In this document: piece by piece, positions 1-20,004 of the stretch
Layout of the letters: each line of letters begins with the position of its first letter
Position numbering within the stretch: position 1 is the stretch's first letter
Virus record (IMG/VR): IMGVR_UViG_3300018081_000002
Location: 1 to 48,449 of that record
Source: a virus
Reading direction: 5' to 3' (one strand)
Length of the DNA stretch: 48,449 nucleotides
Made by a program: the position numbers and the translations under genes
Notes under the pieces: model-generated
What the model was told of the DNA's origin: nothing
Database searches by the model: none
What the model saw: only the letters and a program-made list of their open reading frames with translations

Positions 1-123
1 CCTCTACAGATCCAGACTCATGTCGGGTGAGGAGCCCGATCTCCCAACCCGGGTACAGGGCCGTGAGATGGTTCCCCGTTCCCGCAGCTTCGAGTCCGAG
101 GCGGTCCCGCAGGAGCTGACGCC
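1..123. repeat. Terminal direct repeat, left copy (contig overlap)
   Basis: Bases 1-123 are identical to 48327-48449. The reading frame of the large virion gene continues unbroken across the join, so this is most simply the overlap left when a circular or circularly permuted genome is assembled. A genuine short terminal repeat of the packaged DNA cannot be excluded from sequence alone. Confidence 0.9.
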
Positions 124-4286: not shown

Positions 4287-4656
4287 CTTGGTGGGGGGTA
4301 ACGTCTTCCCCGGATGTTACCTCCTCCCTATGTCCCCTTGCGTTGTAACCCGCCCTCTTCAAAGCCTTGTACAACGTCGTCTCATCCAACTCCAGCTCCC
4401 TGCTCAAGCTTAGAACGCCCTGCGTCTGGATCCTCTCCAACAGGGCCGGCGTGATCTCCAGCTTGAGGTTGTTCGGCCCGCCTGGCGGCTTGGGCCTTAT
4501 GTCGTGTCGCTTCAGCTCGGCCCGGACGGTGTTCACGCTAATAGCGAAGCGCATGGCCAGTTGACCCACGCTGTGCTTGTTGTAGAGAACCTGCCACATG
4601 TGTTGTGTGTCCTTATACCCTAGCTCCTGTGCTATCCTCTCCCACTGTATCGCCAT
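4264..4656 (-). CDS. Helix-turn-helix DNA-binding protein
   Basis: A 130-residue protein with two HTH-like segments. The first, near residues 27-52, carries the motif SVGQLAMRFAISVNTVRAEL. The second, near residues 84-106, carries LSLSRELELDETTLYKALKR. A Pro-rich linker separates them and the acidic tail is Glu/Ser-rich. The ATG at 4656 follows AAGGA by about eight bases. It is the last gene of the leftward operon, 10 bases after the DUF3987-like gene. Copy 4288-4300 of the dispersed repeat lies in its 3' coding end and encodes Thr-Pro-His-Gln. It is one of two HTH proteins here that might bind that repeat, which is speculation. It could also be a small-terminase-like or homeodomain-type protein. 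Confidence 0.7.
   Translation of the reverse strand: MAIQWERIAQELGYKDTQHMWQVLYNKHSVGQLAMRFAISVNTVRAELKRHDIRPKPPGGPNNLKLEITPALLERIQTQGVLSLSRELELDETTLYKALKRAGYNARGHREEVTSGEDVTPHQVSEEEAS
4288..4300 (+). repeat. Dispersed G-tract repeat, copy 1
   Basis: Exact TTGGTGGGGGGTA, followed by ACGTCTTCCCC. It lies in the convergent junction: two bases after the stop of the rightward gene and inside the 3' coding end of the leftward HTH gene. Confidence 0.9.
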
Positions 4657-4666
4657 ATAAGTGTCC

Positions 4667-6052
4667 TTAGGTGTTGAAGGCCCATCCCTCGGTCGTGAGG
4701 AAGTAGGTGTGAGTCGGCGCGTCGTACTCGACCAGGCCAGCGGACTTCAGGGTCTCTAGCAGCTCCCTGAACTCCCTCTGCCTCATCCGATTGCTGTTCA
4801 TCCGGAGCCAGTCGCTGTGGAGCAGCTTCCCACCCTTCCGCTTCAGCTGTGTCAGCAGCCTCGCTTGATCCTCTCCGAAGGCGTTCTGGTTCATCTCTCC
4901 GAAGGCGCCTGGGAGGAACAGTTCCAGCCATTCCAGAATCTGGAGTGCCCGCTTCAGGTGACTCGGAGTGAGGACCAAGGAACTTCCGCCACTCGCTGAG
5001 AGGATCATTGCCAGGCGGATCAGGTGATCCGGCTTCCGTTCGTTGTACCCAGCGAACTGCTTGTCGGTATTGGTGGACTCCACCCTGTTGAGATACCAGT
5101 TGTCGTACCACTCCTCCGCTTCCGGGGTCATATGGAACTCCCCCCGTAACTCGTGCAGCTCACGGAGGCGCTGGACCAGCCGACTTTCCAGGTCCTTGTC
5201 CATGGCCGGGGGACGGGGGAAGACGCGGGGAGTGTCGTGTTGGATTACGAAGAGGAGCCTGGACATAAACCCCCCACCAAATGCGTCCCTCGGAATGGCG
5301 GTCTGGATCCAGTCCATGGTGGAGCAGGCTAGCATGCTAAACGCTGCGTTGTACAGGATCACCTCTCCCCTCGTGATCGTCACGCTCTTAAACTCCTTCG
5401 GGCAGTCGAACAGCGCCGTCAACAGCGGGATCATCCCCTCCTGATACTTCTGCTTGCCGAGGAAGACAGCGAACTCCGGAGCGTAGATCGTGGCGATGCT
5501 TTCCGTCTTGTCTTGGAATGCGGCCGTTAAGGCCTCGGGTGTAGCCTTATCAGCAAGGACAGTACCACCTCCTTTCCGCAAGAGGGACATGGCAACGTTA
5601 CAGGCGCTAGTTTTTCGACACTTGCCGGAGGGTGCGACGATGAGTACTGCAAGGTTAGGGTATATCTGGTAGGCCCCTTTGTCGTAGTAGACGTTTCGTC
5701 CGAGTACGGATCCAATCGCCACACACCCTGCGAAGAAATGGAAGACATCAGGAGGCTCCGTGTTGAGGGTGAAGAGCATGTAGTCCGAGAGCCAGGTCTG
5801 CGCTGGTACCAGGGACATGAAGTCGGGTATCCGCTTCTTCTTCATGTCCAAGGCGGTCGTCAATTCCGTGTCGCTGAGGTGAAAGCTGAGCTGCATCGCA
5901 CGGAGTAGCTCTGGTGGTCGAGAGGCGGGGGGTAGTAACAAGACCCACTCGAGGACTTGGTTGTAGAGCGCGCCACCACGGACGTCGTTGACTCCCTGTA
6001 GGAACTCCATCAGCTTCGCGATCTGCTGGCTGATTGGGAGTGCCGTCTTCAT
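4667..6052 (-). CDS. DUF3987-like phage ATPase (primase/helicase-associated)
   Basis: A 461-residue protein from the ATG at 6052. The start is chosen because it overlaps the dpdA stop as ATGA, the pattern used throughout this operon; a longer frame to 6091 exists. Residues 140-149 read APSGKCRKTS, a variant P-loop close to the R-K-S/T type of the DUF3987/YfjI family. Upstream is a conserved helical segment ending VFHFFAGCVAIGS. The C-terminal 90 residues look like a winged helix (QREFRELLETLKSAGLVEYD). DUF3987 proteins usually occur in replication modules, where they may act as helicase or primase partners. No other replicative helicase is recognisable here, so this may fill that role. Downstream by 10 bases is the HTH gene. 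Confidence 0.65.
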   Translation of the reverse strand: MKTALPISQQIAKLMEFLQGVNDVRGGALYNQVLEWVLLLPPASRPPELLRAMQLSFHLSDTELTTALDMKKKRIPDFMSLVPAQTWLSDYMLFTLNTEPPDVFHFFAGCVAIGSVLGRNVYYDKGAYQIYPNLAVLIVAPSGKCRKTSACNVAMSLLRKGGGTVLADKATPEALTAAFQDKTESIATIYAPEFAVFLGKQKYQEGMIPLLTALFDCPKEFKSVTITRGEVILYNAAFSMLACSTMDWIQTAIPRDAFGGGFMSRLLFVIQHDTPRVFPRPPAMDKDLESRLVQRLRELHELRGEFHMTPEAEEWYDNWYLNRVESTNTDKQFAGYNERKPDHLIRLAMILSASGGSSLVLTPSHLKRALQILEWLELFLPGAFGEMNQNAFGEDQARLLTQLKRKGGKLLHSDWLRMNSNRMRQREFRELLETLKSAGLVEYDAPTHTYFLTTEGWAFNT

Positions 6053-6771
6053 ACGAATCTCCGAAGATACGCTATGTTGTAGTACGTGCACGCCAACTCC
6101 TCTCCTGTCAACACGGCGTCCATCCGCAACGGCCCGATTCCCCGTAACTCGATCCCCGGCTCGAAGCGCTTCAGCTTCTGCCCGAACTTGATCGGCTTAC
6201 TAGTGTCCACGCTACCGTGGATCCCCCGTTCCTCGAACATCCCACGGATGATGCGGAGCTCGGAGAGGCTGCTCACACCGAGCAAGTGGTGCCGCACCTT
6301 CACCCGGCTAAACAGGTGTAGGCTCTCCTTCAGCCACACTTCCCTCGCTTCCTTGAACGGCCAGAAGAACCAGCTGCACCCTCTCGAGAGAGCTGCACTG
6401 ATGAACTGCGCCCTGAGATGCGGCTCATTCCCCGTAACCACGATCCCGACGGGAAACTCCCCTTTCATCACTTCCACAGTCTCTTCCCACTGCTCCCAGT
6501 TCCACGTCCGTTCCCCCAACTTGTCCGGCGCAACGACTACGGTAGGCTTTATCTCCCTCGCGGCCAAGCGGAGCTCGATGGGCGACAGGGGCACCCCTAG
6601 CTCGTGGAAGCTGTTGTCGAGGATGACCTCCCTCTTCCTCTCTCCCATCTCCCTGTAGAAGCTGGCGTAGCGCCGGTGGTCCAGGACCATGTGAGCGAGG
6701 GCGAAGTCCATCTCGCAGAGGGGGCTCAGATCGCTGAGGTGAGCCACGGGGATCTCCATGCACAACTTCAC
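6049..6771 (-). CDS. dpdA: DpdA-like 7-deazaguanine DNA transglycosylase
   Basis: A 240-residue protein resembling the short, phage type of tRNA-guanine-transglycosylase-like TIM barrel. Visible elements are VILDNSFHELG (residues 49-59, containing the presumed catalytic Asp), VVVAPDKLGE (78-87), GIVVTGN (109-115), HHLLGVSS (161-168) and GSVDTSKPIKFGQ (186-198). Known DpdA enzymes exchange guanine in DNA for preQ0 made by FolE, QueD, QueE and QueC, and all four are encoded in the same operon, which supports the call strongly. GTG 6771 overlaps the previous stop as GTGA; ATG 6759 is an alternative. It lacks the zinc site of tRNA TGTs, but the gene immediately upstream encodes a four-cysteine protein. 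Confidence 0.75.
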   Translation of the reverse strand: MKLCMEIPVAHLSDLSPLCEMDFALAHMVLDHRRYASFYREMGERKREVILDNSFHELGVPLSPIELRLAAREIKPTVVVAPDKLGERTWNWEQWEETVEVMKGEFPVGIVVTGNEPHLRAQFISAALSRGCSWFFWPFKEAREVWLKESLHLFSRVKVRHHLLGVSSLSELRIIRGMFEERGIHGSVDTSKPIKFGQKLKRFEPGIELRGIGPLRMDAVLTGEELACTYYNIAYLRRFV

Positions 6772-7001
6772 TTCGCCACCTCCACATTTACCTCGACACA
6801 GATGCTTCCCACAACCTCGCGATGCCGGTTCTTGTCCAGGAGGAACGCCATCACGCTGCCGCAGCGGACGCACTGATACGCTGGGTGGAGCGTCTCCTCC
6901 GCTCGTCCCAGAAGCGTCACGTTGTACACCTTGGTAAAGCAGCCACAGTGGCAGGTCTCACAGTGGATGTGGGTTTCCCTCTCGATCTCGCCAATCTTCA
7001 T
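6768..7001 (-). CDS. Small zinc-ribbon protein coupled to dpdA
   Basis: A 77-residue protein with cysteines arranged as CETCHCGC near residues 14-21 and CVRC near residues 45-48, a likely zinc ribbon. The ATG at 7001 overlaps the polymerase stop (ATGA), and its own stop overlaps the dpdA start (GTGA), so translation of the three genes is probably coupled. The function is unknown. Because this DpdA lacks an obvious zinc site of its own, a partner or specificity subunit is an attractive but untested idea. Confidence 0.65.
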   Translation of the reverse strand: MKIGEIERETHIHCETCHCGCFTKVYNVTLLGRAEETLHPAYQCVRCGSVMAFLLDKNRHREVVGSICVEVNVEVAK

Positions 7002-9490
7002 AATCCGAGCTCCTTCCGAAATGTCGCCTGGGCCTCGCCCTCCAACTTCGTCTCCATCCAATTCCGCGGCCCGAAGCTCGGCTCGGCGGGCACGCGCCAA
7101 CCTTGCGGATAGAACTTGCGCACTGTAGCGGGATCTCGTGAAGCTTCCACGATTTCCGGCCATTGCCTCTGCATCACAGCTGTAAGGCATTCCGTTGCCT
7201 CCTTTACCACGTCCCTGTGACTCACGACCACGAGCTCGTCATGCACCGTCAATCTGACCGTCGCTCCCTTCGGAAGCTGCTCGTCGGCCTCCCGGATCGC
7301 GACGTACATCATGTCCGCTCCGGTACTTTGCGGGGGGAAGTTGTACATCTCTGTCACTTGCCTGGTGTACCACCACCTCCTCCGGCCAAACGGATTTGCC
7401 AGGAAGTGTTGCCGTTCCACCTGCTCCTCGAGGCCCTTCCTCCACTTCTCGTACACGTGGTACTTCGTGAAGAAGCGGAAGAGGAACCCTTCCACCCACG
7501 TCTTACTCGTCCCTAGTTGCTGGGCTATGGATTGGGCTCCCCTTCCGTAACCTAGTCCGTAGACGATGAACTTCGTGGCGTATCTGTAATTATACTGCTT
7601 TCCTGGGACGAGGTCCCGTACACGTGAAAGAGGGAGACCGAAGCCTTCGGCAGCTGTAACCTCATGAATGTCCGCACCAGCTGCCAGAAGGCTGAGGCCG
7701 TAAGGGTCGCCCGAGAGCGCCATCGCAATTCGCCACTCGACCTGGCTCCAGTCCACGCTGATGAAAACGTGATCCGGTGTGTCAGGGATGTAGATCTCCC
7801 GTAGCTTCTTCGGTATGTTCTGAGCGTTCGGGTCCCAGCTATTGATACGTCCAGTCGCCGCTTTAGCACAACCAAATCTCGGGTGGACGAAGCCCTCGTC
7901 ATCTGTCTCTACCTCCAAATTCGTGCTCACGGTGTGATACGCGCTTCGCACCTCGTTGATGAGCCCCAGGATCTTGTTCTCCGGGAACTTCTCCACGAGG
8001 GCCTCGACTGCGCCGGCGTTCGCTGTCGGCCTCATTCCTCCCTTCTGGTCCTTGGTGTATTGGACTGGAAGGCCCAACTTGTCGTACAGCAGCTTCATCA
8101 GTTCCTTGGGACTCTGCACGTTCAGGTTGGGCATACCTACCGCGTCCCGTAGCATCTGCTCGTACTTCGCAGCGCCGATGAGCATCCCCTGCGCCCACAT
8201 CTCCGCCTTGTCCACATCCTTCCGAATTCCCCGATCGGCCATGCGACGGAGGATTGGTTGCAGGGGCATCACGTTGTTGTAGAGGAGGTTATCCATCCCC
8301 ATATTGTGGATCTCTTGTCGGAGACCCAGGTAAGACCTGGTGGTCGCATCGACGTCCTTCGCGCAGCCTGTGGCCAGTCCAACCTCATCACCCTTGTACA
8401 TAGAGTCATCTTTCCAGTGCTCCATGTCGGTGTAGAAGGTCTTGATGGTGTCCAGTGACTTTGGAAGGTCACTGTTTGTGAGGTGGAACATGAGCATCGT
8501 GTCACAGGTGTTCGGCGCTATGTGCCAATTTTCTCCGGTTGCTTGTTGACGCTTGCGTTCGAAGAGGGGCCAGTCGTAGGACTCGCTGTTTTGTCCGACC
8601 TTAACAATCGTAGGATTTGTGAGGAGCCCGTAGAGTAGGCGCTGAGCTTCAAGGGTCCAACGGAAAACGCGAGCACGACCTTGGGCCGATCCGACCCCGT
8701 AGCACTTGATGTGAGCTTCATCGAGGTCGAGGCTCGTTGTCTCGGCGTCGACGCTGATGAAGCCGGACTCCTGGGCTTCTCTTCTAACAGCAGCTGCGTG
8801 ATCCGCAGCATCAGGGAGGATGGAATACTCCACTGCGACGCGACGGACTTCCCGGAACTCGCTCTCTTTCTTCGCTTTGACGAGGTCCCAGACGACGACC
8901 GGCCAGAACGTTTGCGTACGCATGACGAACGCGGGGTGAAACGTGGGGAGAACCTTCCTTCCTCCAGCGCCCTCAATAGGGATGCCGCGATAGCTGCCGA
9001 TCTCTGCCTTTCCTGTAGTGACGTAGAGAGCAGTCGCTCCGACAGGGACGAGGAGTTTGGGGTTGACGAGTTTGAGCTCGTTGACGAGGTAGCGGGCACA
9101 CCACCGGATTTCTTCATCATCAGGCTTCCTGTTCTTGGGAGGCCGACACTTCACGGCATTGGTTATGTAGATGTCGTCCCTACGAATGCCCGCTTGGCCC
9201 AGCAGCGCAGTGAGCACACGGCCAGACCCTCCTACGAAGGGAAGGCCCCTTCGGGCCTCCTCCTCGCCGAGGGCTTCTCCCACGAGCATCATGTCCGCAT
9301 TGGGTGGGCCGACACCATAGGCGTACCCCTCACCAATCTCGTAGAGGGGGCAGCCTATGCAATCCTTCGGCTTGGGGCCCGTGACCAGCTTCACCTGGCA
9401 TACGGGACACAGCCCTGTGTTCGGGTGCAGATCCGCCGTAGCGGCCTTGCCGTCCGGCCCCGCTTTGCAGACGGAGTTTTGGCACTTCAC
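6998..9490 (-). CDS. polA: Uracil-DNA glycosylase / family A DNA polymerase fusion
   Basis: An 830-residue replicative polymerase. Residues 1-220 form a family 4-type uracil-DNA glycosylase: GEALGEEE (71-78), NAVKCRPPKNRKP (111-123) and HPAFVMR (185-191), with Cys44, Cys47, Cys115 and Cys131 spaced as 4Fe-4S ligands. A 3'-5' exonuclease domain follows (DAETTSLD at 248, VGQNSESYD at 298, AKDVDAT at 377). The polymerase domain has motif A SVDWSQVEWRIA (578-589), motif B RYATKFIVYGLGYG (636-649) and motif C VHDE (749-752). It would copy the genome and may scan the template for uracil. GTG 9490 overlaps the upstream stop (GTGA). All catalytic residues I can check are present. Confidence 0.93.
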   Translation of the reverse strand: MKCQNSVCKAGPDGKAATADLHPNTGLCPVCQVKLVTGPKPKDCIGCPLYEIGEGYAYGVGPPNADMMLVGEALGEEEARRGLPFVGGSGRVLTALLGQAGIRRDDIYITNAVKCRPPKNRKPDDEEIRWCARYLVNELKLVNPKLLVPVGATALYVTTGKAEIGSYRGIPIEGAGGRKVLPTFHPAFVMRTQTFWPVVVWDLVKAKKESEFREVRRVAVEYSILPDAADHAAAVRREAQESGFISVDAETTSLDLDEAHIKCYGVGSAQGRARVFRWTLEAQRLLYGLLTNPTIVKVGQNSESYDWPLFERKRQQATGENWHIAPNTCDTMLMFHLTNSDLPKSLDTIKTFYTDMEHWKDDSMYKGDEVGLATGCAKDVDATTRSYLGLRQEIHNMGMDNLLYNNVMPLQPILRRMADRGIRKDVDKAEMWAQGMLIGAAKYEQMLRDAVGMPNLNVQSPKELMKLLYDKLGLPVQYTKDQKGGMRPTANAGAVEALVEKFPENKILGLINEVRSAYHTVSTNLEVETDDEGFVHPRFGCAKAATGRINSWDPNAQNIPKKLREIYIPDTPDHVFISVDWSQVEWRIAMALSGDPYGLSLLAAGADIHEVTAAEGFGLPLSRVRDLVPGKQYNYRYATKFIVYGLGYGRGAQSIAQQLGTSKTWVEGFLFRFFTKYHVYEKWRKGLEEQVERQHFLANPFGRRRWWYTRQVTEMYNFPPQSTGADMMYVAIREADEQLPKGATVRLTVHDELVVVSHRDVVKEATECLTAVMQRQWPEIVEASRDPATVRKFYPQGWRVPAEPSFGPRNWMETKLEGEAQATFRKELGL

Positions 9491-9780
9491 ATCTTCCTCC
9501 GTCTCTTGTTATCCTCGATCCACCCTTGCACAGCGTCGAGCATCCCCTCCCTCTCGCTGTTGGAGATCCAGAACACAGCTCCCCGACCCTTCGGAGCAGC
9601 TTCGTTGACTCCGAAGGGAACGAGGAACAGTCCCCAACCCCAGTCCTCGGGCACCTCCTCGTCGATCAGGGTGGCAAGGGTGCGGAGTGCCCGCTCGATG
9701 TACTCGTCGCGGACCTGGTATCGCTCGTCAGGTGTTTGCGGGGGGTATTGTTGCCGCTTCTTCCCGTTGCTCTGTTTCAT
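9487..9780 (-). CDS. Hypothetical phage protein
   Basis: A 97-residue protein with a Lys/Arg/Gln-rich N-terminus, a central helical segment (EYIERALRTLATLIDEE) and a conserved-looking core (RGAVFWISNSEREGMLDAVQGWIE). I recognise no family. It overlaps folE upstream (ATGA) and the polymerase downstream (GTGA). A degenerate copy of the dispersed repeat lies in its first 15 codons. Confidence 0.6.
   Translation of the reverse strand: MKQSNGKKRQQYPPQTPDERYQVRDEYIERALRTLATLIDEEVPEDWGWGLFLVPFGVNEAAPKGRGAVFWISNSEREGMLDAVQGWIEDNKRRRKM
9736..9747 (+). repeat. Dispersed G-tract repeat, degenerate copy
   Basis: TTGCGGGGGGTA followed by TTGTTGCC: one base shorter and altered in the TGGT part, but with the same G6-TATTGTT core and flank. 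It lies in the 5' coding end of the leftward 97-residue gene. Confidence 0.5.
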
Positions 9781-10367
9781 CTCGCTTCCACCCTCGGATA
9801 CCCGATCATCCGGAGGAACTCATCCCTTGTGGGGTGATTGGTCATGAAGAGCCCTCTCATGGCGCTTGACACTACGTCCGCGTCGCTACGGACTCCCCGA
9901 TGCCTCATGCAACCATGCCTTCCCACAACAACGACTCCAGCGCCTTTCGCATCTGTGGCGTGTTGGAGGAGATCGACCACTGCGTCGGTGTACGTCTCCT
10001 GCATGATGGGTCCTGTGAGAGGCTGTTCAGCAACACGTGCCAGCTTGGAGAGACCGAGGACCTCTTTATGCGGAATGTAACCGACGTACACACGCATCTC
10101 CACCGGAACGAGATGGTGCGGGCAGACTCCATGCACAACATGTCCCCGTAGAATAACCATGGAGTCGTGTTGTTCGGGGAAGGTGGCGAAGCTGTTGTGC
10201 CTGGGAGTAAACAGCTCTCGGTACATACGTGTGACGCGCGCGGGCGTGTCCTTGTAATTACGATCACTGAGATCCACTCCCATTCCCTCCAGCAGGAGTT
10301 TGACCCCCTGCTGGAGTTTCTTGTCGTCGAACCGGTTGGTGGGGGGTAACGTTTCCCGTTTCTTCAC
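9777..10367 (-). CDS. folE: GTP cyclohydrolase I
   Basis: A 196-residue protein that converts GTP to dihydroneopterin triphosphate, the first step towards preQ0. The zinc site is visible: CPHH at 82-85 and Cys153 in HGCMRHRGVR. The core GYIPHKEVLGLSKLARV is typical of the family. The GTG start at 10367 overlaps the previous stop (GTGA), so residues 7-12 (LPPTNR) are encoded by an antisense copy of the dispersed repeat. That extra N-terminal segment would not disturb the fold. It works with QueD, QueE and QueC encoded upstream in the same operon. Extra supply may bypass a limiting host step. Confidence 0.93.
   Translation of the reverse strand: MKKRETLPPTNRFDDKKLQQGVKLLLEGMGVDLSDRNYKDTPARVTRMYRELFTPRHNSFATFPEQHDSMVILRGHVVHGVCPHHLVPVEMRVYVGYIPHKEVLGLSKLARVAEQPLTGPIMQETYTDAVVDLLQHATDAKGAGVVVVGRHGCMRHRGVRSDADVVSSAMRGLFMTNHPTRDEFLRMIGYPRVEAR
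10336..10348 (+). repeat. Dispersed G-tract repeat, copy 2
   Basis: Exact TTGGTGGGGGGTA followed by ACGTTTCCC. It lies within the first 12 codons of leftward folE, antisense to it. Confidence 0.9.
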
Positions 10368-10558
10368 TGCTCTTCCTCGACCTCAAGCTGGTCCAGAGCC
10401 TTGTTGAGCCACAAGCATCCCTGCTCGAGGTTGGTGACAGCGAGTGAGAGCTCACGGGATTGAATCTCCTTCGGTTGGAGCTTCAGACTGCCAATGTGAG
10501 CGAGAACGATGTCGTGCACTTCACGGAGTCCGGATTTGGTATACCAGTTAATCGGCAT
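10364..10558 (-). CDS. Acb2-like small hairpin-domain protein (putative anti-CBASS sponge)
   Basis: A 64-residue helical protein. Its C-terminal half, with SRELSLAVTNLEQGCLWLNK at residues 34-53, matches my memory of the Acb2/Tad1 hairpin domain, where a pattern like REL-ALT-LE-A-W-N is conserved. Acb2 proteins bind cyclic di- and trinucleotides and so block CBASS defence signalling. The gene lies between queE and folE and overlaps folE by GTGA. The family call rests on pattern recall, not a search. The N-terminal half (INWYTKSGLREVHDIVLAHI) also fits a helical hairpin. Confidence 0.55.
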   Translation of the reverse strand: MPINWYTKSGLREVHDIVLAHIGSLKLQPKEIQSRELSLAVTNLEQGCLWLNKALDQLEVEEEQ

Positions 10559-10562
10559 GGCT

Positions 10563-11195
10563 TCACCTCACGTTCAGGAACTTGTGGAACTGGTTGCTAA
10601 GGCGGAGCTCCGGGTGCCTGTCCACCAGCCCGAGTGCCTCGTCCAGCGCGAGAGGGTCGATGAAGTGTTTCAGGTTCCGAGGCTGCAGGTAGACCAGCTT
10701 GCCTTCCCTGGCCCACACGACAGCTTGCTCCACGCTGGGCCACCCTGTCGGATCGTCTCCTAGGCCCCCCAAGATAACCTTGACCTCGTTGGCCATCTCG
10801 ATCATGAAGGGTAGGTAGCCCGGCTTGGGAGACACAGTGATCCAGTTAAGGGAGCCGTGGCGTTGGGGATCGTACTTCACGGTCCCCGAGGTTTCCACGT
10901 GGACCACGATCCCCTCCTCGTGAGCCGCGTCCACGAGGGGCTTGAGGCTCCGGTCGAGTGGCTCTCCACCTGTAAGACAGATCGTATCGTAGGGGAGCGA
11001 CCACGTAGCGAGCTCCGTGGGATCGTACAACCCCCCACCAAGCTCGGGATATGGCTTGTCGAAGTCCGTGTCGCAGTGAGTGCACACCCCCTGTCCCACA
11101 CTACATCCTACAAGCCTGATAAAGGCCATCGGGGCCCCGGTGTAGAGGCCTTCTCCCTGGATGCTCTTGAAGCGCTCGGCGAGTGGATACTTCAT
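10563..11195 (-). CDS. queE: 7-carboxy-7-deazaguanine synthase (radical SAM)
   Basis: A 210-residue radical SAM enzyme that converts 6-carboxytetrahydropterin to 7-carboxy-7-deazaguanine. The N-terminus FKSIQGEGLYTGAPMAFIRL is diagnostic, as is TGGEPL for the SAM-binding region. The cluster cysteines are spaced C-x6-C-x2-C (CSVGQGVCTHCDTDF), not the common C-x3-C-x2-C. The ATG at 11195 overlaps the queD stop (ATGA). A GGTGGGGGGTT stretch at 11031-11041 encodes the ELGGGLYD segment and is probably coincidental to the dispersed repeat. Confidence 0.92.
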   Translation of the reverse strand: MKYPLAERFKSIQGEGLYTGAPMAFIRLVGCSVGQGVCTHCDTDFDKPYPELGGGLYDPTELATWSLPYDTICLTGGEPLDRSLKPLVDAAHEEGIVVHVETSGTVKYDPQRHGSLNWITVSPKPGYLPFMIEMANEVKVILGGLGDDPTGWPSVEQAVVWAREGKLVYLQPRNLKHFIDPLALDEALGLVDRHPELRLSNQFHKFLNVR

Positions 11196-11620
11196 ACACG
11201 CCCCTTTATCAGGTATACTTCCCTGTTAACCCGATCCGTGGTAGCCCATCCACCATCGGACTCCATCACTCTGACCTCCTTCACGCTATACGAGAGGTCC
11301 TGCATGTGGTTGAACATCAGGCTCGAGATGTGCTCCGCGCTAGGGTTCCTCGTGAGGAGCATGTAGCGGTTCTCACTGTTCTCGAAGAAGGCTTGGGCCG
11401 GATCCCCCTTGATCAGGAGCATTGTGTGGTCCAAGGTGTCGAGCAGCTTCCGCATGTCCCTTTTAATCACGGTGAAGTCCGTCACGAGGCCCACCGCGTC
11501 CGGGTTGCCCATCACCGTGACCTCGAACACGTAGTTATGTCCGTGGAGATTTGCGCACAGTCCCTCGTGCCCCAGAAGCCTGTGTCCCATGGCGATTGTC
11601 ACTCTTGCCGTACAATTCAT
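11192..11620 (-). CDS. queD: 6-carboxytetrahydropterin synthase
   Basis: A 142-residue T-fold protein of the QueD/PTPS family, the second step of the preQ0 pathway. The zinc ligands His13 (MGHRL) and His26/His28 of CANLHGHNY are present, as is the catalytic Cys22. Later motifs include VTDFTVIKRDM, LDHTMLL and EVRVMES. The ATG at 11620 has an AAGGAG ribosome binding site immediately downstream of a repeat copy. The ATGA overlap with queE suggests coupled translation. Confidence 0.93.
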   Translation of the reverse strand: MNCTARVTIAMGHRLLGHEGLCANLHGHNYVFEVTVMGNPDAVGLVTDFTVIKRDMRKLLDTLDHTMLLIKGDPAQAFFENSENRYMLLTRNPSAEHISSLMFNHMQDLSYSVKEVRVMESDGGWATTDRVNREVYLIKGRV

Positions 11621-12164
11621 CGAGCGTCTCCTTGGTGGGGGGTATTGTTGCCCCCTGTTCGAACAATGGGTCGTGAAAGAACCCGTTCTCCAACTGATGC
11701 GACAGCACCATCAGGCCCCATCCCGCGGCCCCGATGTGGTCGTCCACCTCGAGCAGGCTGTTCATCCCCTCGCACAGTTCTTGCATACGCTCTGGCCAGG
11801 TTCCTTCTTGTTGGGCAACGTAAGCTAGGCCCCGGCGGAAAGCGTCCTGCAACGTCAGGAGGTGCGCGATCGTGTGATTCAACACGTCCGAGGTTGGGAG
11901 GCCCTTCTCCCAGTTACCCTCTCCGTATTTTAGAGCCCCACCATCCGCCTGGCCAGATTCGTCGGCGTGCCCAGTTGCACGCTCTGCGATACGCTCGATC
12001 AGGGAGTGGACCACGAGGTCGTACCTGACCACTCGGCCGCTGCGTTTCGCGCCTGTAGGATAGGTGTGCATTCCAGCCCCTTGACTTACGGAGGCAGTCG
12101 GGGCACTCGAGCCAGTAAGATCCCGGAGCCGCGGGAGATCGTCTAGGTCCTTGTCTCTCGGCAT
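11535..12164 (-). CDS. DUF5664-like (dATP/dGTP diphosphohydrolase N-terminal) protein
   Basis: A 209-residue frame. The central part resembles the DUF5664 family: TGAKRSGRVVRYDLV, then ALKYGEGNWEKGLPTSDVLN and later DDHIGAAGWGLMVLSH. Family members include phage enzymes or helpers that hydrolyse purine dNTPs, as in the Z-genome phage S-2L pathway. Here it could trim the dNTP pool, which is inference. The ATG at 12164 has GGAG about eight bases upstream; the ATG at 12071 would begin directly at the conserved part. The 3' end overlaps queD by 86 bases, a long overlap, and the last 30 residues look like low-complexity read-through. The first 31 residues conflict with a competing frame at 11914-12231. 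Confidence 0.6.
   Translation of the reverse strand: MPRDKDLDDLPRLRDLTGSSAPTASVSQGAGMHTYPTGAKRSGRVVRYDLVVHSLIERIAERATGHADESGQADGGALKYGEGNWEKGLPTSDVLNHTIAHLLTLQDAFRRGLAYVAQQEGTWPERMQELCEGMNSLLEVDDHIGAAGWGLMVLSHQLENGFFHDPLFEQGATIPPTKETLDELYGKSDNRHGTQASGARGTVRKSPRT
11632..11644 (+). repeat. Dispersed G-tract repeat, copy 3
   Basis: Exact TTGGTGGGGGGTA followed by TTGTTGCCCCC. On the leftward strand it lies directly before the queD ribosome binding site and inside the 3' end of the DUF5664-like frame. Confidence 0.9.
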
Positions 12165-12231
12165 GTGAACTCCAATGTGAAAGGGGGTGTTGGTGGCCCC
12201 AGAAACGACACCAGGTGAGTCGTGAATCCAT
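11914..12231 (-). CDS. Possible small zinc-ribbon protein overlapping the DUF5664-like gene
   Basis: A 105-residue alternative frame with the best ribosome binding site in the area (AGGAGG, five bases before ATG 12231). Its first 52 residues look like a phage zinc ribbon: LTWCRFWGHQHP followed by YWLECPDCLRKS. The remainder is Arg-rich and looks like read-through of the DUF5664-like gene in another frame. If this gene is real, the DUF5664-like protein probably starts at 12071. I cannot decide between the two. Confidence 0.35.
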   Translation of the reverse strand: MDSRLTWCRFWGHQHPLSHWSSHAERQGPRRSPAAPGSYWLECPDCLRKSRGWNAHLSYRRETQRPSGQVRPRGPLPDRAYRRACNWARRRIWPGGWWGSKIRRG

Positions 12232-12247
12232 CTGACCTCCTAGACGA

Positions 12248-12260
12248 TACCCCCCACCAA
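12248..12260 (-). repeat. Dispersed G-tract repeat, copy 4 (left arm of inverted pair)
   Basis: Exact element on the minus strand. Together with 12268-12280 it forms a perfect 13-bp inverted repeat with a 7-base loop (GTCTGCG) in the gap between two leftward genes. Confidence 0.92.
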
Positions 12261-12267
12261 GTCTGCG

Positions 12268-12280
12268 TTGGTGGGGGGTA
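12268..12280 (+). repeat. Dispersed G-tract repeat, copy 5 (right arm of inverted pair)
   Basis: Exact TTGGTGGGGGGTA followed by ACGTTGTTTG. It is the second arm of the 13-bp inverted repeat with 12248-12260. It is followed at 12291-12305 by a separate hairpin, TAGGCC-GAA-GGCCTA, that contains the stop codon of the next leftward gene. Confidence 0.92.
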
Positions 12281-12290
12281 ACGTTGTTTG

Positions 12291-12305
12291 TAGGCCGAAG
12301 GCCTA
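12291..12305. other. GC-rich triloop hairpin at a stop codon
   Basis: TAGGCC-GAA-GGCCTA is a 6-bp stem with a 3-base loop. On the leftward strand its first three bases are the TAG stop of the DUF669-like gene. No T-run follows, so it is not a standard terminator. Confidence 0.6.
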
Positions 12306-12701
12306 CCGGGCGATGTCCGTGGGGAGGTACTTCACGACCTTGTTACGGTCGCTGTAGCCGGCCTGCCCCTTCTCGGTGGTGATGGCAGCGCAGACCTCGA
12401 GCTGGAGGAGCTGGTCGGTATCGTCCAGCGTGTCGTCCTCACCCCAGCCGAGGGCGTCCTTGAGGAGCTGGTCGAGCTTGAAGGTCTTGCCCTTCGCCAG
12501 CGTCAGGATGTCCCACACCGCGCGACCGAGCCACTCGCCCTCGTCGACGCACTTGAGCATGAGGTTGATGTACGGCTCCTTCCCCTCGCCCTGCGCCTTC
12601 TTGATCTCGGCGCGGTCGATGCGGAAGGTGTAAACGGCGTCCGGCATGAGGCTGGACGCGAGGTCTCCGGTGCGGACGGGTCCGCCAGGCAGTTGTGCCA
12701 T
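12303..12701 (-). CDS. DUF669-like, possible ssDNA-binding protein
   Basis: A 132-residue protein with the layout of DUF669 phage proteins: an early beta strand (YTFRIDRAEIKKAQGEGKEP), the YINLMLKCVD-W-GRAVWDILTL core and a C-terminal strand with RNKVVKYLP. In many phages this family sits beside a RecA-like ATPase and a nuclease and is thought to bind single-stranded DNA; both neighbours occur here. Its ATG at 12701 overlaps the ATPase stop as TAATG. Confidence 0.65.
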   Translation of the reverse strand: MAQLPGGPVRTGDLASSLMPDAVYTFRIDRAEIKKAQGEGKEPYINLMLKCVDEGEWLGRAVWDILTLAKGKTFKLDQLLKDALGWGEDDTLDDTDQLLQLEVCAAITTEKGQAGYSDRNKVVKYLPTDIAR

Positions 12702-13552
12702 TACGCTTCTCCTTGACCACGTGTCGTGGTCGTTGTGGGCGTTGTGCCCCTTCCAGAGGCTCCCGGTTTGGGAACCTCAAGTCGCTTCACAGCCGTCATG
12801 TCGCCCATCATCAGGGCTATCACGTCTGTGATGTTCGCCAGGATAGGATCCGGGATGGGTGTTCCACCCGGAGCTCGGATTCCTGAGACCCGCTTCCCCT
12901 GGTTCTTCGTCCGGAAGACACGTGTCGCGCCCCGGAACTCACCGTACAACGTGGCGTCCGTCTCCCCTGTCAGCTTCTTCGGTAGTTGCTGGCCAGGTAA
13001 ATCGGGCACCTCGTATTGGACCTTGATCTCGTTCCCCTTGTCGTCGAAACCCACCGACTCCTCGAGGATGGTCACTCGTGAGGTCATCACGAGATGTGCG
13101 TCCAACGACAGGAACAACTTCATGGCCTGCTGTCCCTTCTCGCTGATGTAGCTGTAGACCCGTCTGGGATCCTTCCCTTTCTCCATCCCCCAGACGTCCT
13201 TCCAGCCCATGATCTTCATTCCGGCCTGCATCCACAGCTCGCCACACCCGGGTCCGAGGCTGTCGATGAACACCGTCTCGAAGATCTCACCGTCCAGCTC
13301 CACGCGGCCAGGTGTCTTCCGGAGCGTGGCGATCAGCTGGACCATCTCATCCCAGCTCCGGACCCTCACAGCTGGTAGGTCTAGGTCTGACAGTGTCATC
13401 AGGCCGCCGGTGCTTCCTGCCTCCGTACTTATCACCAGAGGTTTGGGACACGTCCGTGCAAGATGTGTCTTCCCCCAGCGCGGAGGTGCGTACACGAGGA
13501 TCGTCGCCCTTGGCGCCTTGAGACTGCTCGTGCGCAGGAGTTCGAATGGCAT
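12701..13552 (-). CDS. RecA-like phage recombination ATPase (AAA_24 type)
   Basis: A 283-residue protein from the ATG at 13552. Walker A is YAPPRWGKTHLA (residues 21-32). A Walker B-like strand, ETVFIDSLGP, follows near residue 95. After an ATPase core of about 200 residues comes a Pro/Thr-rich tail (TTPTTTTTRGQG). Such ATPases are found with SSB-like and Cas4-like genes in phage recombination or replication modules, which matches the neighbours on both sides. The start is chosen because it overlaps the upstream stop as TAATG; a longer frame to 13633 has no such support. Confidence 0.75.
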   Translation of the reverse strand: MPFELLRTSSLKAPRATILVYAPPRWGKTHLARTCPKPLVISTEAGSTGGLMTLSDLDLPAVRVRSWDEMVQLIATLRKTPGRVELDGEIFETVFIDSLGPGCGELWMQAGMKIMGWKDVWGMEKGKDPRRVYSYISEKGQQAMKLFLSLDAHLVMTSRVTILEESVGFDDKGNEIKVQYEVPDLPGQQLPKKLTGETDATLYGEFRGATRVFRTKNQGKRVSGIRAPGGTPIPDPILANITDVIALMMGDMTAVKRLEVPKPGASGRGTTPTTTTTRGQGEA

Positions 13553-13779
13553 TACGCTATATCCCCTCTCTTCCCCGTGACCGCGAAGCTGATCCGCCCA
13601 CCGACCGTGGTGAGGTGGACCATGTCTGTCCACGGAATCCAGACGTGCGTGCCGGGCTTACGCTGTGCCACCTCGAGGATCACCCCGAGGTCGCTGTAGC
13701 GGAGGCGGACACGAGCTACCTCGTGTCCGTCCTCGTACAGTGTGAGGGCCTCGCCCGGCTTAATTTGCGGGGTCGCCAT
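13552..13779 (-). CDS. Hypothetical small protein
   Basis: A 75-residue, probably all-beta protein (ALTLYEDGHEVARVRLRYSD, THVWIPWTDMVHLTT). I do not recognise it. The ATG at 13779 lies 20 bases inside the GroES-like gene; an AAGGA lies only two or three bases ahead of it, so the start is uncertain. It ends as TAATG with the ATPase start. Confidence 0.55.
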   Translation of the reverse strand: MATPQIKPGEALTLYEDGHEVARVRLRYSDLGVILEVAQRKPGTHVWIPWTDMVHLTTVGGRISFAVTGKRGDIA

Positions 13780-14230
13780 CTTCCTTGTCCGCCTCGGCCA
13801 CGAGCTCGCCGAGATCCTCGAGGGCGTTCTCGATGCCCACGAGGTCGTCATCCGTCAGCGTCGTGTTCTCCGGAACCACGCTGTCGATCAGCTTGCCCAC
13901 TTCTTCCTTCAACTCGTCTCTGAACATGTTGTCCTCCAATACGGCCAGGATGCTGTGCTCGGGAAGGAGCCACAGATCGAGGCCGTGTAGCGTGAATGGC
14001 CGCCCTGACAGTTTCTCGATTACCACCTTGCAGCCGCTAAGAAGTGGTTCACCGCCCCAGTAGTCCCAGTATCCGCCGGGCTCATGGAGATGGACGTAGC
14101 CCCAGACTGACAGTTCCTCGTAGTGCGGAGGGAGCACGATCAGGCCACTGGGCGTTCTGTCTACGATTGGGTCACGAGTGATGAGCACGTGACCCGGGAG
14201 AATCTGGATGGAAAGGTTACCCCCCACCAA
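13760..14230 (-). CDS. GroES-like co-chaperonin
   Basis: A protein of up to 156 residues whose first 105 resemble Cpn10/GroES. The N-terminal strand IQILPGHVLITRD parallels the start of GroES, SGLIVLPPHYEELSVWGYV matches the GGIVLP region before the mobile loop end, and SGRPFTLHGLDLWLLPEHSILAVLED matches the C-terminal closing strands. The acidic tail after residue 115 is unusual. It would cap the host GroEL to fold a phage protein such as the capsid, as T4 gp31 does. There is no ATG: the frame begins TTG GTG inside a dispersed repeat copy, so translation may start in the repeat or at a GTG further in. Confidence 0.7.
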   Translation of the reverse strand: MVGGNLSIQILPGHVLITRDPIVDRTPSGLIVLPPHYEELSVWGYVHLHEPGGYWDYWGGEPLLSGCKVVIEKLSGRPFTLHGLDLWLLPEHSILAVLEDNMFRDELKEEVGKLIDSVVPENTTLTDDDLVGIENALEDLGELVAEADKEDGDPAN

Positions 14231-15158
14231 CGGCCTCCTTCTTCTGGGTGAGGATCGAGGGATCGTCTACGTAGTCCCTCTTACGGGGGATGTAGGCCAT
14301 CCGCCGGATCGGGTTGTCCTTGAGGCACAGGTCCCGGAAGTAGCAGGTGCCGTAGGAGAAGCACTCGTTCGTGTTCTTGTAGAACACCTGCTTCCAGTCC
14401 TCACCCTCCTTCACCCGTCGGTGTCGCCACCGAATTTCCCGGGCGATCTCCACGAACTCCCGCTCAAACTCCTCCAGCTCCTCGTCCGTCCGGATGAAAC
14501 GTTCGCGGTGGAACTGAGGCACCTGGGTTTTGACGAGGACGTTCACGATCACGCCGGCCACTCGGACCGGACGTCCACTCTCCTGTGTCAGCTTCTTCGT
14601 GATGGCGTACGTGTAGGCCGTCATCTGGAGGTCCATCTCGTACTTAAGCATGTCCCTGGGATCCAGCCTCGCCGCGGTCTTGTGGTCCACGATCCAGAGC
14701 ATCTTGTCCTGGAGTGCGAGCTCGTCCGTTCGGAACACGAGGAACACGTTTGTCCCTGTCCCGATCTCCACGCGCCCCGCTACCTCGAGACCGATCGGCT
14801 TCCACGGATTGTAGTCACTCTTGTAGTGTTCGTAGTACGCTGGGAGCATCTTCTCCATCAGCTCGATGTGCTCGTTGACGATGCCCTCGTCTCCGGGGAA
14901 CTTCCCTTCGGGCATCTGCTTCCGGAACGTCGCGATGCCGTGTGAGAGGGCGTCGTTCATGTCCATCTTCCCTGAGGCCACCTCCGCTAGGGCCGCGTGG
15001 ACCGCGGTTCCGAAGCTGAGAGCGTACGTGGGCCTGTCCGGCTGTAGATGCTCGTGGTAGAACCACCCGTACTTCCGGTGGCACCGGAGGAAGGTCTGAA
15101 CCCGAGATTGGTTCAGGTTGATCACTTGGTCGTCGACCTCAAGGTCTAGGAATGACAT
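14217..15158 (-). CDS. PD-(D/E)XK nuclease, Cas4/RecB-like
   Basis: A 313-residue protein from ATG 15158 (GAGGG six bases upstream). The N-terminal SQSRVQTFLRCHRKYGW and ALSFGTAVHAALAE are typical of PDDEXK_1/Cas4-like phage exonucleases. The nuclease core shows LWIVDHKTAARLD (D-x-K) with an upstream FRTDELAL. Cysteines in RCHRKY and ECFSYGTCYFRDLC could bind an iron-sulphur cluster. It probably acts with the adjacent ATPase and DUF669-like protein in recombination or end processing. Its TAA stop is supplied by a dispersed repeat, so the last residues (VGGG) are repeat-encoded. Confidence 0.85.
   Translation of the reverse strand: MSFLDLEVDDQVINLNQSRVQTFLRCHRKYGWFYHEHLQPDRPTYALSFGTAVHAALAEVASGKMDMNDALSHGIATFRKQMPEGKFPGDEGIVNEHIELMEKMLPAYYEHYKSDYNPWKPIGLEVAGRVEIGTGTNVFLVFRTDELALQDKMLWIVDHKTAARLDPRDMLKYEMDLQMTAYTYAITKKLTQESGRPVRVAGVIVNVLVKTQVPQFHRERFIRTDEELEEFEREFVEIAREIRWRHRRVKEGEDWKQVFYKNTNECFSYGTCYFRDLCLKDNPIRRMAYIPRKRDYVDDPSILTQKKEAVGGG
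14218..14230 (-). repeat. Dispersed G-tract repeat, copy 6
   Basis: Exact element on the minus strand, sense to its neighbours. It contains the stop codon of the PD-(D/E)XK nuclease and the only in-frame upstream start codons (TTG, GTG) for the GroES-like gene. Confidence 0.92.
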
Positions 15159-15333
15159 TCGTGTCCCTCTTATCTGAATACCCTTCTTCACACCACATCG
15201 CGATCAACCAGCGGATCGCAGATGTCGGTGTAGCTGGTGGTTCACACGACTCACACCTCGCAAGAAACTCCTTGTACTCCTCCGGTGTGAGACGAAGGGT
15301 AAGGTGGACAGAGTGTCGTCGGTTCTCACTCAT
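15139..15333 (-). CDS. Hypothetical small protein, possible ribbon-helix-helix
   Basis: A 64-residue protein. HSVHLTLRLTPEEYKEFLAR at residues 7-26 resembles the strand-helix start of ribbon-helix-helix regulators. It is followed by CESC and a helix (TSAIRWLIAMWCEEGY). Its start overlaps the upstream gene end by eight bases and its end overlaps the nuclease start by 20. Confidence 0.55.
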   Translation of the reverse strand: MSENRRHSVHLTLRLTPEEYKEFLARCESCEPPATPTSAIRWLIAMWCEEGYSDKRDTNVIPRP

Positions 15334-15523
15334 TCTTCTCCTGGAGGAAAGATTCCGACGGTTCGATGATCAGCTGTAGGACCCTGGAGCCCTCCGTCTT
15401 CAGGTAGAACGCCTCCACGATCTTCACCCGTACCGGTGTCCCGAGGTCCGCTAGCTGGGCTGCCCGCATTCCCGCCTTCGGGCTCCAGCGGTAGGTCACT
15501 TTGCCTTTCGGCATGCTCGGCAT
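15326..15523 (-). CDS. Hypothetical small basic protein
   Basis: A 65-residue protein with an OB- or SH3-like run of strands (KVTYRWSPKAG, TPVRVKIVEAFYLKTEG, SRVLQLIIEP). ATG 15523 has AAGGAG eight bases upstream. Almost the whole gene overlaps the 3' part of the 282-residue frame in a different phase, yet its composition looks more protein-like than the overlapped tail. Confidence 0.6.
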   Translation of the reverse strand: MPSMPKGKVTYRWSPKAGMRAAQLADLGTPVRVKIVEAFYLKTEGSRVLQLIIEPSESFLQEKNE

Positions 15524-16178
15524 CTATTCGTCTCCTTGCGTATGCGTGTGGGTCACGGAGGATCTCCTCGATCTCCTTGTCCCCGGTAAGCCACTGCATT
15601 GCTCGGGTCATCGAGGTCCCCCTGATACGCATGTGGCCGTCGAGGAGGATGAAGCTGGCACTCGTGGGGCCCAGGTTCCCGTCTCGTCTCAGCTCCATGT
15701 AACAGCGGAGCATGTCCCCTTGCCTCCAGAACTTTATCGATCCCCCCTCGTGTAGGGTGAAACGACGCTCTTCGTGAGGGAAGGGGATCTTTACTGGCAT
15801 CGGCTCGGATACGGGTGCCTGTTGCATCCGTCCGATCACGATAGCGATGATGTGGGCCTGGTCCGGGTTGTTGAGCACGTCCTCCGACAGGAGGAACTGC
15901 TCCACCTCCTGTCGGAAAGGGAAGGAGGTGAAGCGTTCCCGCATCATTTGGAGGTGCTCGTCGACCTCGCTCTGGGCCCACGTGAGAGGGATCCCGGATA
16001 CCTGGACCAGGCGGAACTCGCTCCGGCCAGGGCCCGGCATCGCTTGAAGGGCGTAGACAGGGATGTCGTCTACCATCCGGAAGTAGGTGAGAGCACGTTC
16101 CGGATGTTCACGCCACAGTTCATGGCGCTCGGTGATCGCACCCTGCATCTCCTCCCATTCCCACCACGTCAGCTCCAT
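15330..16178 (-). CDS. Hypothetical protein
   Basis: A 282-residue protein I do not recognise. The first 215 residues look folded: MELTWWEWEEMQ, a helical middle and a beta-rich part (RRFTLHEGGSIKFWRQGD). The last 60 residues (EPEGGNAGSPASGPRDTG and on) are low in complexity and lie where the 65-residue gene is read in another frame. The overlap may be genuine, or the protein may normally end earlier. It begins three bases after the nucleotidyltransferase gene. Confidence 0.55.
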   Translation of the reverse strand: MELTWWEWEEMQGAITERHELWREHPERALTYFRMVDDIPVYALQAMPGPGRSEFRLVQVSGIPLTWAQSEVDEHLQMMRERFTSFPFRQEVEQFLLSEDVLNNPDQAHIIAIVIGRMQQAPVSEPMPVKIPFPHEERRFTLHEGGSIKFWRQGDMLRCYMELRRDGNLGPTSASFILLDGHMRIRGTSMTRAMQWLTGDKEIEEILRDPHAYARRRIDAEHAERQSDLPLEPEGGNAGSPASGPRDTGTGEDRGGVLPEDGGLQGPTADHRTVGIFPPGEE

Positions 16179-16180
16179 CG

Positions 16181-16828
16181 CTACATCGGCCTTTCGGGCA
16201 TCTCGATTCCCATGTCCACGACCTGCTTCGCAGCTCGAAGCTCGGCCATCTGAATGATACCGCGGGCCAGGCGTTCGACGTGCTCCCAGTTGAGCTTGGT
16301 GCCGTAGCGGTCGCTCAGCGTGATGTAACGGCGGAGGGTGCTGTGTGGAGTGGTGAACCGGAGCACCTCGATCGGTTGGCCTGGGAGCGTGGCCTCACGT
16401 AGTTGCAGTCTCCGTTCGTAGATGTCGAGGAGCGCGTATGCGTAGGCATGGACGCTGAGGTCGAACTCCTTGAGGAGGTTCAAGACGTCCGTCTCGTTGT
16501 CCTCATCTGCTTGATGGTCCTCCCAGACCATGATCTGGATCGGCACCTCGATGTGCTTGTGGACTGTGGCCACCTTGTTCAGGTTCGGGATTCCATACAG
16601 CGCTGTCGGAGATTGGTCAATAACGCACTCTTCGAACGTGCGGAGGTGGGCGAGGACGATTTCAACTACGGACTTGCGCATGTCCCGGTCTGTGAGGATC
16701 CAGACATCCACGTCCCGGAAGTCCGTTGTGATCGCCGCAGAGCCTGCAATGTAGGTGCGGACGTGGAGGTAGGAGGGGATTAGATCCTTGATGTGGGGGA
16801 AGATGTGTGCACGCTGCTCGTGATTCAT
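16181..16828 (-). CDS. Nucleotidyltransferase-fold protein
   Basis: A 215-residue protein of the Pol beta-like nucleotidyltransferase superfamily: YIAGSAAITTDFRDVDVWIL at residues 26-45 has the GS motif followed by D-x-D with the expected spacing. A third acidic strand may be HIEVPIQIMVWED near residue 100. The substrate is unknown. It starts just after queC, sharing the CTGGAG ribosome-binding region. It could act in nucleotide or RNA modification, or in defence or counter-defence signalling; none of these is shown. Confidence 0.7.
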   Translation of the reverse strand: MNHEQRAHIFPHIKDLIPSYLHVRTYIAGSAAITTDFRDVDVWILTDRDMRKSVVEIVLAHLRTFEECVIDQSPTALYGIPNLNKVATVHKHIEVPIQIMVWEDHQADEDNETDVLNLLKEFDLSVHAYAYALLDIYERRLQLREATLPGQPIEVLRFTTPHSTLRRYITLSDRYGTKLNWEHVERLARGIIQMAELRAAKQVVDMGIEMPERPM

Positions 16829-16831
16829 GGG

Positions 16832-17500
16832 CTACTCCAGTGTGATGATGGTTAGGGGATCGATCGTGTGGTTGAGCTCGAAGGCCTCGGCCCGCTCCAC
16901 ACAGGTGCCACACTTGCCACAGGGGAGCAGGGTCCCCTCGTAACAGGTCCATGTAAGCTCGTAGGGGACGTTCCGGTACAGGCCCTCCTCCAGGATTTGG
17001 GCCTTCGTTACGTCGATGTACGGGGTGTAGATGCTGACCTTGTGTTCGTCGCAGAGGCGGATGGCCTCACCCATGGCAGTCACGAATTCCGGACGGCAGT
17101 CTGGGTAGATCGCGTGGTCCCCTGCGTGCGCGGCGTAGGCAACGAAGTCGGAGTGGGTGGCGATGGCAAACGCTGTTGCGATGGAGAGCATGACCATGTT
17201 CCGGTTTGGCACCACAGTGACTTTCATGCTTTCGTCCGTGTAGTGACCGTGTGGAACCGGCACTCCACTCGTTTGAGAGGAGCCGAACATAAACTCTCGG
17301 CCGACCTGGCGAAGGTTGACGATGTGATGGGGGGTGTGGTAGTACTTGGCGATAGCGTGGGCCGCGTGGAGTTCCTTGCTGTGCCGTTGTCCGTAGTCGA
17401 ACGAGATGGCGTGGTGTCGGCCATCGGGAAATGCGTTGAGTGTGTGTGCTAGGAGGGTGGAGCTGTCCATTCCACCCGAGAGGAGAACGATTCCGTTCAT
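16832..17500 (-). CDS. queC: 7-cyano-7-deazaguanine (preQ0) synthase
   Basis: A 222-residue PP-loop ATPase that converts 7-carboxy-7-deazaguanine to preQ0. The loop is LLSGGMDSST near the N-terminus. Family motifs follow: SFDYGQRHSKEL, TVVPNRNMVML, AAHAGDHAIYPDCRPEF and the C-terminal zinc cysteines C-x8-CGKCGTC. There is no fused glutamine-amidotransferase domain, so the pathway probably stops at preQ0. ATG 17500 has AAAGGA seven bases upstream; a longer frame to 17557 is Gly/Pro-rich and unlikely. It is the most promoter-proximal of the deazaguanine genes. Confidence 0.95.
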   Translation of the reverse strand: MNGIVLLSGGMDSSTLLAHTLNAFPDGRHHAISFDYGQRHSKELHAAHAIAKYYHTPHHIVNLRQVGREFMFGSSQTSGVPVPHGHYTDESMKVTVVPNRNMVMLSIATAFAIATHSDFVAYAAHAGDHAIYPDCRPEFVTAMGEAIRLCDEHKVSIYTPYIDVTKAQILEEGLYRNVPYELTWTCYEGTLLPCGKCGTCVERAEAFELNHTIDPLTIITLE

Positions 17501-17512
17501 CGGCTGTCCTTT

Positions 17513-17527
17513 GGGCCCTGCGGGCCC
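17513..17527. other. GC-rich triloop hairpin upstream of queC
   Basis: GGGCCC-TGC-GGGCCC, a 6-bp stem with a 3-base loop, just upstream of the queC ribosome binding site. No T-run follows. Confidence 0.6.
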
Positions 17528-17573
17528 GGCATGCTTTTGTTGCACATTGAAGTCCACTTAGCGGCCCAACGAA

Positions 17574-19946: not shown

Positions 19947-19972
19947 TGTCTGCTCTCCTGTTGGGATGCCGT

Positions 19973-19985
19973 TACCCCCCACCAA
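19973..19985 (-). repeat. Dispersed G-tract repeat, copy 7 (inverted pair)
   Basis: Exact element on the minus strand. With 19992-20004 it forms a perfect 13-bp inverted repeat around a 6-base loop in the leader of the HTH gene. Confidence 0.92.
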
Positions 19986-19991
19986 GACATT

Positions 19992-20004
19992 TTGGTGGGG
20001 GGTA
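19992..20004 (+). repeat. Dispersed G-tract repeat, copy 8 (inverted pair)
   Basis: Exact TTGGTGGGGGGTA. The extended 18-mer ACATTTTGGTGGGGGGTA starting at 19987 is identical to one at 25216 in the small terminase gene. Confidence 0.92.

Follow-up and report, generated by a model that had tools for sequence, protein, structure and literature searches.

The stretch of DNA analyzed here (the window) is the whole of virus record IMGVR_UViG_3300018081_000002, 48,449 bases long, and belongs to a phage that encodes its own FolE, QueD, QueE and QueC, the enzymes leading to 7-cyano-7-deazaguanine (preQ0), together with a compact DpdA-like protein predicted to have the fold of tRNA-guanine transglycosylases (TGTs). 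Because preQ0 enzymes and a relative of DpdA are both encoded, the guanines of this phage DNA are probably disguised chemically. We estimate at roughly 80% the probability that the phage exchanges guanine for self-made preQ0 in its DNA by means of this protein and that the modified guanines block many restriction enzymes. Considered separately, the presence of some 7-deazaguanine introduced into the DNA through DpdA is very likely, and 2′-deoxy-7-cyano-7-deazaguanosine (dPreQ0) is favored, with less assurance, as the main final base. The strategy and the gene set have already been described in many phages (the 2019 group comprised 40), and the accepted picture is unchanged; the novelty lies in a clade of compact and divergent DpdAs, found here in a small phage genome that is complete.

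A complete set of preQ0 synthesis genes

The four synthesis genes are all located on the minus strand. FolE, a GTP cyclohydrolase I (9777-10367), matches PF01227 (4e-41) and has the CPHH and RHGC motifs. QueD, a 6-carboxytetrahydropterin synthase (11192-11620), matches PF01242 (1.3e-24) and TIGR03367 (2.4e-21) and carries CANLHGH (CX3HXH) and LDH, while QueE, a 7-carboxy-7-deazaguanine synthase (10563-11195), matches TIGR04508 (1.5e-23) and phrog_2076 (8e-22) and has the radical S-adenosylmethionine cysteine triad CX6CX2C. QueC, the preQ0 synthase (16832-17557), matches PF06508 (7e-57) and TIGR00364, has the SGGMDS loop and a CX7CX2CX2C zinc site, and is devoid of any fused amidotransferase domain. 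An earlier note on this sequence had claimed a complete FolE/QueD/QueE/QueC set with its active-site residues; the Pfam, NCBIfam and PHROG matches and the presence of each expected metal or active-site motif bear this out. With the curated cut-offs of NCBIfam, QueC passes (178.6 bits for TIGR00364, compared to a cut-off of 150.3), whereas FolE, QueE and QueD score below theirs, which may fit diverged phage versions. The pathway being established, the enzymes encoded here would turn GTP into preQ0.

The CX6CX2C spacing of QueE is common to the window and to three related loci (L003, L006 and L009). It is CX3CX2C in Mycobacterium phage Funsized and Arthrobacter phage Sonali, and the spacing in phage immuto differs from both. 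The QueC of the window matches 328 phage records.

A DNA-guanine transglycosylase candidate with the TGT fold

The DpdA-like protein (6049-6771, minus strand, GTG start at 6771, 240 residues) is matched by no model of Pfam, NCBIfam or PADLOC, and its single PHROG match is weak and concerns a family of unknown function. Among 50,697 phage records, tblastn retrieved only immuto (annotated as DpdA, 22% identity) and the group of Campylobacter phage CP220 (24%), with E of about 1e-4. A first scan of viral contigs gave five relatives at 78%, and a scan with a small alignment gave at least 561, of which 80 were kept. The motifs LDNS-x2-E, PD, HLLG and DTS-x-P are present in every member of an alignment of 46 sequences, from which AlphaFold2 produced a confident model (predicted local distance difference test [pLDDT] of 91.6, predicted template modeling score of 0.89).

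Searches of the PDB by sequence were uninformative, the protein retrieving nothing and the family profile one unrelated and non-significant match (E 0.067); therefore, a fold search was needed. With Foldseek, the 28 top PDB matches of the model were 27 TGT entries (E 2.3e-7 at best) and the bacterial DpdA 7ui4 (3.5e-6), other TIM barrels being lower-scoring; in the viral library, phage queuine-transferase annotations appear lower down the list. The earlier note had described the 240-residue protein as DpdA-like and had made this identification depend on a match to the TGT fold; such matches head the list and the identification stands. Asp52 (LDNS), Asp83 (APD) and Asp189 (VDTS) are invariant in the 46 relatives and follow the order of the catalytic pair (D102, D280) and base-binding aspartate (D156) of TGTs, a correspondence that rests on motif order and on weak, non-significant hhalign alignments of the family with single TGT or DpdA sequences. 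According to the established chemistry of TGT and DpdA, an aspartate nucleophile would free guanine from the phage DNA and attach preQ0.

The TGT fold is common to tRNA enzymes, and the five enzymes could serve a tRNA modification of the queuosine or archaeosine type, as part of a takeover of host translation, rather than act on DNA. We consider this very improbable. The protein has only 240 residues and its sequence lacks the zinc site CXCXXC...H, which is a feature of tRNA-TGT; QueF is absent, and neither QueA nor QueG is found among the annotated genes. Furthermore, the gene lies in an operon for DNA replication, flanked by polymerase and primase-like genes, and its relatives either are annotated as DpdA or belong to phages whose DNA is modified. 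We infer both the enzymatic activity and DNA, not tRNA, as its substrate; the position of the gene would suit a replication-coupled, post-replicative step.

A deep side branch of the CP220/immuto group

A family profile based on the window protein and its viral relatives, immuto and CP220 being left out, recovered the immuto DpdA (1.1e-111) and the CP220 protein (7.5e-84). At E ≤ 1, it found nothing in the genomes of nt-1 (DpdA2), Dp-1, CAjan (DpdA1), Funsized and Sonali. In the phylogenetic tree, a very long branch separates the proteins of the window, L003, L006 and L009, which cluster with full support, from all the others. Judging from these comparisons, the window protein appears to be neither a CAjan-type DpdA1 nor an nt-1-type DpdA2 and instead forms a deep side branch of the CP220/immuto group.

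Like the window, CP220-group phages and immuto encode both a homologous DpdA and a QueC; CP220 also has a FolE match, and in immuto FolE, QueD and QueE adjoin DpdA. However, their DpdAs share only 22-25% identity with that of the window, whose clade lacks the VVQG glutamine, and immuto has a QueF whereas the window has none. The CP220-like group has reportedly been named DpdA3 by Cui et al. in 2023 and been associated with complete guanine replacement, which counts here as no more than a lead. Among the loci of distant DpdA relatives, FolE, QueD, QueE or QueC was found nearby in 38 out of 76 by simple tblastn, an undercount since many of these loci are of limited length and the queries have diverged.

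Two other known systems are more remote. The bacterial DpdA of the dpd genomic island (PDB 7ui4) has a TGT fold as does the window protein, but its chain has 413 residues compared to 240, and PADLOC does not match the window protein. Similarly, the DpdA2 of Vibrio phage nt-1 is a phage transglycosylase that belongs to the TGT superfamily and accompanies preQ0 genes (PMC6884629), but the whole nt-1 genome has no match to the window-family profile.

The final base

The expected product would be dPreQ0, since this complete genome encodes no QueF, no class-II amidotransferase and no ArcS. QueF was found neither in the window nor in the complete sister record G002 (which holds L003), and searches of the window detected no class-II amidotransferase (GATase_6), fused or free, and no ArcS domain (DUF5591). 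Since the genome is complete, these are real absences, and family searches thus agree with the earlier claim that neither a fused amidotransferase nor QueF is encoded. An immuto-type QueF was found in 61 of the 76 loci of DpdA relatives. A weak QueF signal in the records G006 and G007 was rejected, its coordinates lying inside FolE; FolE and QueF have the T-fold in common.

Escherichia phage CAjan and Mycobacterium phage Rosebush resemble the window in encoding FolE, QueD, QueE and QueC without any amidotransferase, together with a DpdA of which the window candidate would be the counterpart. dPreQ0 was measured in the DNA of both, CAjan devoid of dpdA loses it, and the modified DNA of both phages resists nucleases (PMC6884629). 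CAjan differs from the window by a DpdA that the window-family profile misses and by the grouping of dpdA, folE, queD and queC in one block. For the window phage, we infer the identity and extent of the modified base and its protective effect against restriction: its DNA would resist host nucleases. The earlier note had stated that studied phages with this set and neither a fused amidotransferase nor QueF have preQ0 itself in their DNA. Taken as a rule, this holds for CAjan and Rosebush, but the same paper (Hutinet 2019, group 2) gives “preQ0 or ADG” as its prediction for such gene content. Furthermore, according to PMC8306585, which cites earlier work, 100% of the dG of CP220 is replaced by 2′-deoxy-7-amido-7-deazaguanosine (dADG).

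Several points weigh against guanine-to-preQ0 exchange as proposed here. The nearest measured relative, CP220, is reported to carry dADG and not dPreQ0 (PMC8306585), and an unrecognised tailoring enzyme may be present among the open reading frames (ORFs) without assigned function. The window DpdA has a similarity of only 22-25% with characterised enzymes, and its profile misses those of CAjan, nt-1 and Dp-1. Finally, the base-pocket glutamine of TGTs (Q203; VVQG) is replaced in the window, L003, L006 and L009, although it is retained in 43 of the 44 other sequences.

The loss of this glutamine, together with a faster evolution of DpdA and QueE than of the other pathway genes, could indicate that the pathway is decaying or DpdA inactive, and that the virion DNA carries little or no modification. 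All five genes are nevertheless kept in L003/G002 and in the more distant L009/G006, and the comparison of the window with L003/G002 gave ratios of nonsynonymous to synonymous substitution rates of 0.23 for DpdA, 0.07 for FolE, 0.08 for QueD, 0.43 for QueE and 0.14 for QueC. The five ORFs are intact, purifying selection acts on all of them (least strictly on DpdA and QueE), and the catalytic aspartates are invariant. Furthermore, the DpdAs of CAjan, Funsized and Sonali are also devoid of QG at the corresponding place, as judged by eye; since DpdA1-type proteins thus also lack it, the loss of the pocket glutamine is not taken as decisive. Decay therefore seems improbable, although slightly less so than a role in tRNA modification.

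A more serious alternative, which we regard as possible but clearly less probable than dPreQ0, is that the same module leads to dADG or another derivative through an enzyme of the phage or of its host that escaped recognition; most or all of the guanine might then be replaced, as in the CP220 group. The window DpdA groups with CP220, in which dADG is reported for all dG in the absence of a recognised QueF or fused amidotransferase (PMC8306585); the CP220 genome encodes an unfused QueC of 231 residues and no QueF above cut-off. Furthermore, two ORFs without assigned function (15330-16178 and 16181-16828) are located just downstream of QueC. However, no tailoring enzyme is recognised in the window, tblastn matches in CP220 are limited to the window DpdA, FolE and QueC, and the deep split between the two DpdAs makes a transfer of chemistry from one to the other weak. 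Because its closest characterised DpdA relative has dADG without recognised QueF or amidotransferase, dPreQ0 is the leading but not a secure prediction. More speculatively, and in our opinion unlikely, the window clade would be a distinct DpdA subfamily that branches deepest beside CP220/immuto, with about 240 residues and loss of both the pocket glutamine and the zinc site. It might insert preQ0 (not preQ1 or ADG) at very high density, perhaps replacing most guanine, or make an undescribed base.

Operon and genome organisation

On the minus strand, QueD, QueE, an ORF of 64 residues, FolE, an ORF of 97 residues, a polymerase gene, an ORF of 83 residues, DpdA and a DUF3987 gene follow each other continuously. 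Nearly all junctions from QueD to DUF3987 overlap, mostly by four bases, which is the pattern of a tightly translated operon. QueC lies about 5 kb upstream of this block, and the next ORF starts within 3 bases of it. The genes are therefore spread along a replication operon, as the earlier note had stated, but its view that they do not form one block does not apply to QueD-QueE-FolE-(polymerase)-DpdA, which is continuous and overlapping, and only QueC is apart. This order is the same in L003 and in L009; the DpdA of L009 is 40% identical to that of the window, and the L009 record also has QueC.

The polymerase gene (6998-9490, minus strand) encodes a family A DNA polymerase (PF00476, 2.6e-54) to whose N-terminus a family-4 uracil-DNA glycosylase (PF03167, 5.7e-30) is fused. 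Similar proteins from Pseudomonas and Serratia phages align with it from about residue 42 onward, and since such proteins are known, the fusion is not new. Downstream of DpdA, the DUF3987 protein (4667-6091, minus strand) is primase/helicase-like (PF13148, 1.8e-18; phrog_14296, DNA primase). The 83-residue ORF (6768-7019, minus strand), which overlaps the start of DpdA by 4 bases, encodes a cysteine-rich zinc-ribbon-like protein that is 82% identical in L003; it was rejected as a conserved DpdA partner since L009 has a different small ORF at that place, and it is probably not essential to the module. Upstream of QueD, a dATP/dGTP diphosphohydrolase-like protein (11535-12164, minus strand; PF18909, 1e-6) may alter the nucleotide pool, but nothing links its gene to the module.

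Concerning the two minus-strand ORFs downstream of QueC, neither has a Pfam match. The protein encoded at 16181-16828 has a GS...DVDVW motif that resembles those of nucleotidyltransferases, but it was not retained as part of the module, tblastn finding no match in G006. The one encoded at 15330-16178 has a partial homologue after QueC in G006 (28% over 95 residues); despite this, it was not retained as a tailoring enzyme, its structural model being too poor to read (pLDDT 38).

The record carries an exact direct repeat of 123 bases at both ends (1-123 and 48327-48449), and G002 (49,383 bases) has an end repeat of 127 bases; therefore, both genomes are complete and circularly closing. They are circular permutations of each other with about 81% nucleotide identity over 42 kb. 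The window thus corresponds to a small, complete phage genome of about 48.3 kb from an uncultured lineage. Megablast against known phages gave no match, and a scan of a genome collection for a host or prophage found no relative. The plus strand carries head genes (terminase, SU10-type portal and capsid) from about 24.7 kb onward, and the replication genes are on the minus strand. The virus is a tailed phage of lytic type whose head module is podovirus-like. At 20-4286 (plus strand), two large proteins without Pfam match are possibly ejection proteins or virion enzymes; the first seems to run across the ends of the record, its L003 equivalent being a single ORF of 1550 residues.

The window also contains 17 copies (at ≤3 mismatches, compared to 0.1 expected) of a repeated element, TTGGTGGGGGGTA(A/T)(C/T)GTTTCC, on both strands and in many cases at gene junctions. 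Copies are found for example at 4288, 10336, 11632, 12240-12288 (pair), 14210, 19965-20004 (pair), 25191, 25221, 26982, 27206, 30699, 33078, 33654 and 34742, the two pairs being closely spaced and inverted. Its 13-base core has 25 occurrences in G002, some at matching positions and others elsewhere, and is absent from G006. The element resembles a stoperator-like site bound by a regulator, or a site associated with promoters.

Implications

With this complete genome, an uncultured phage lineage joins those whose DNA is predicted to be masked by 7-deazaguanine, and the CP220/immuto type of transglycosylase is extended to a compact divergent form that escapes the models of Pfam, NCBIfam and PADLOC. 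Compact DpdA enzymes of this kind could be useful as minimal tools for DNA base exchange. Furthermore, the window clade would provide a test of whether loss of the pocket glutamine accompanies the use of preQ0 rather than that of preQ1 or ADG.

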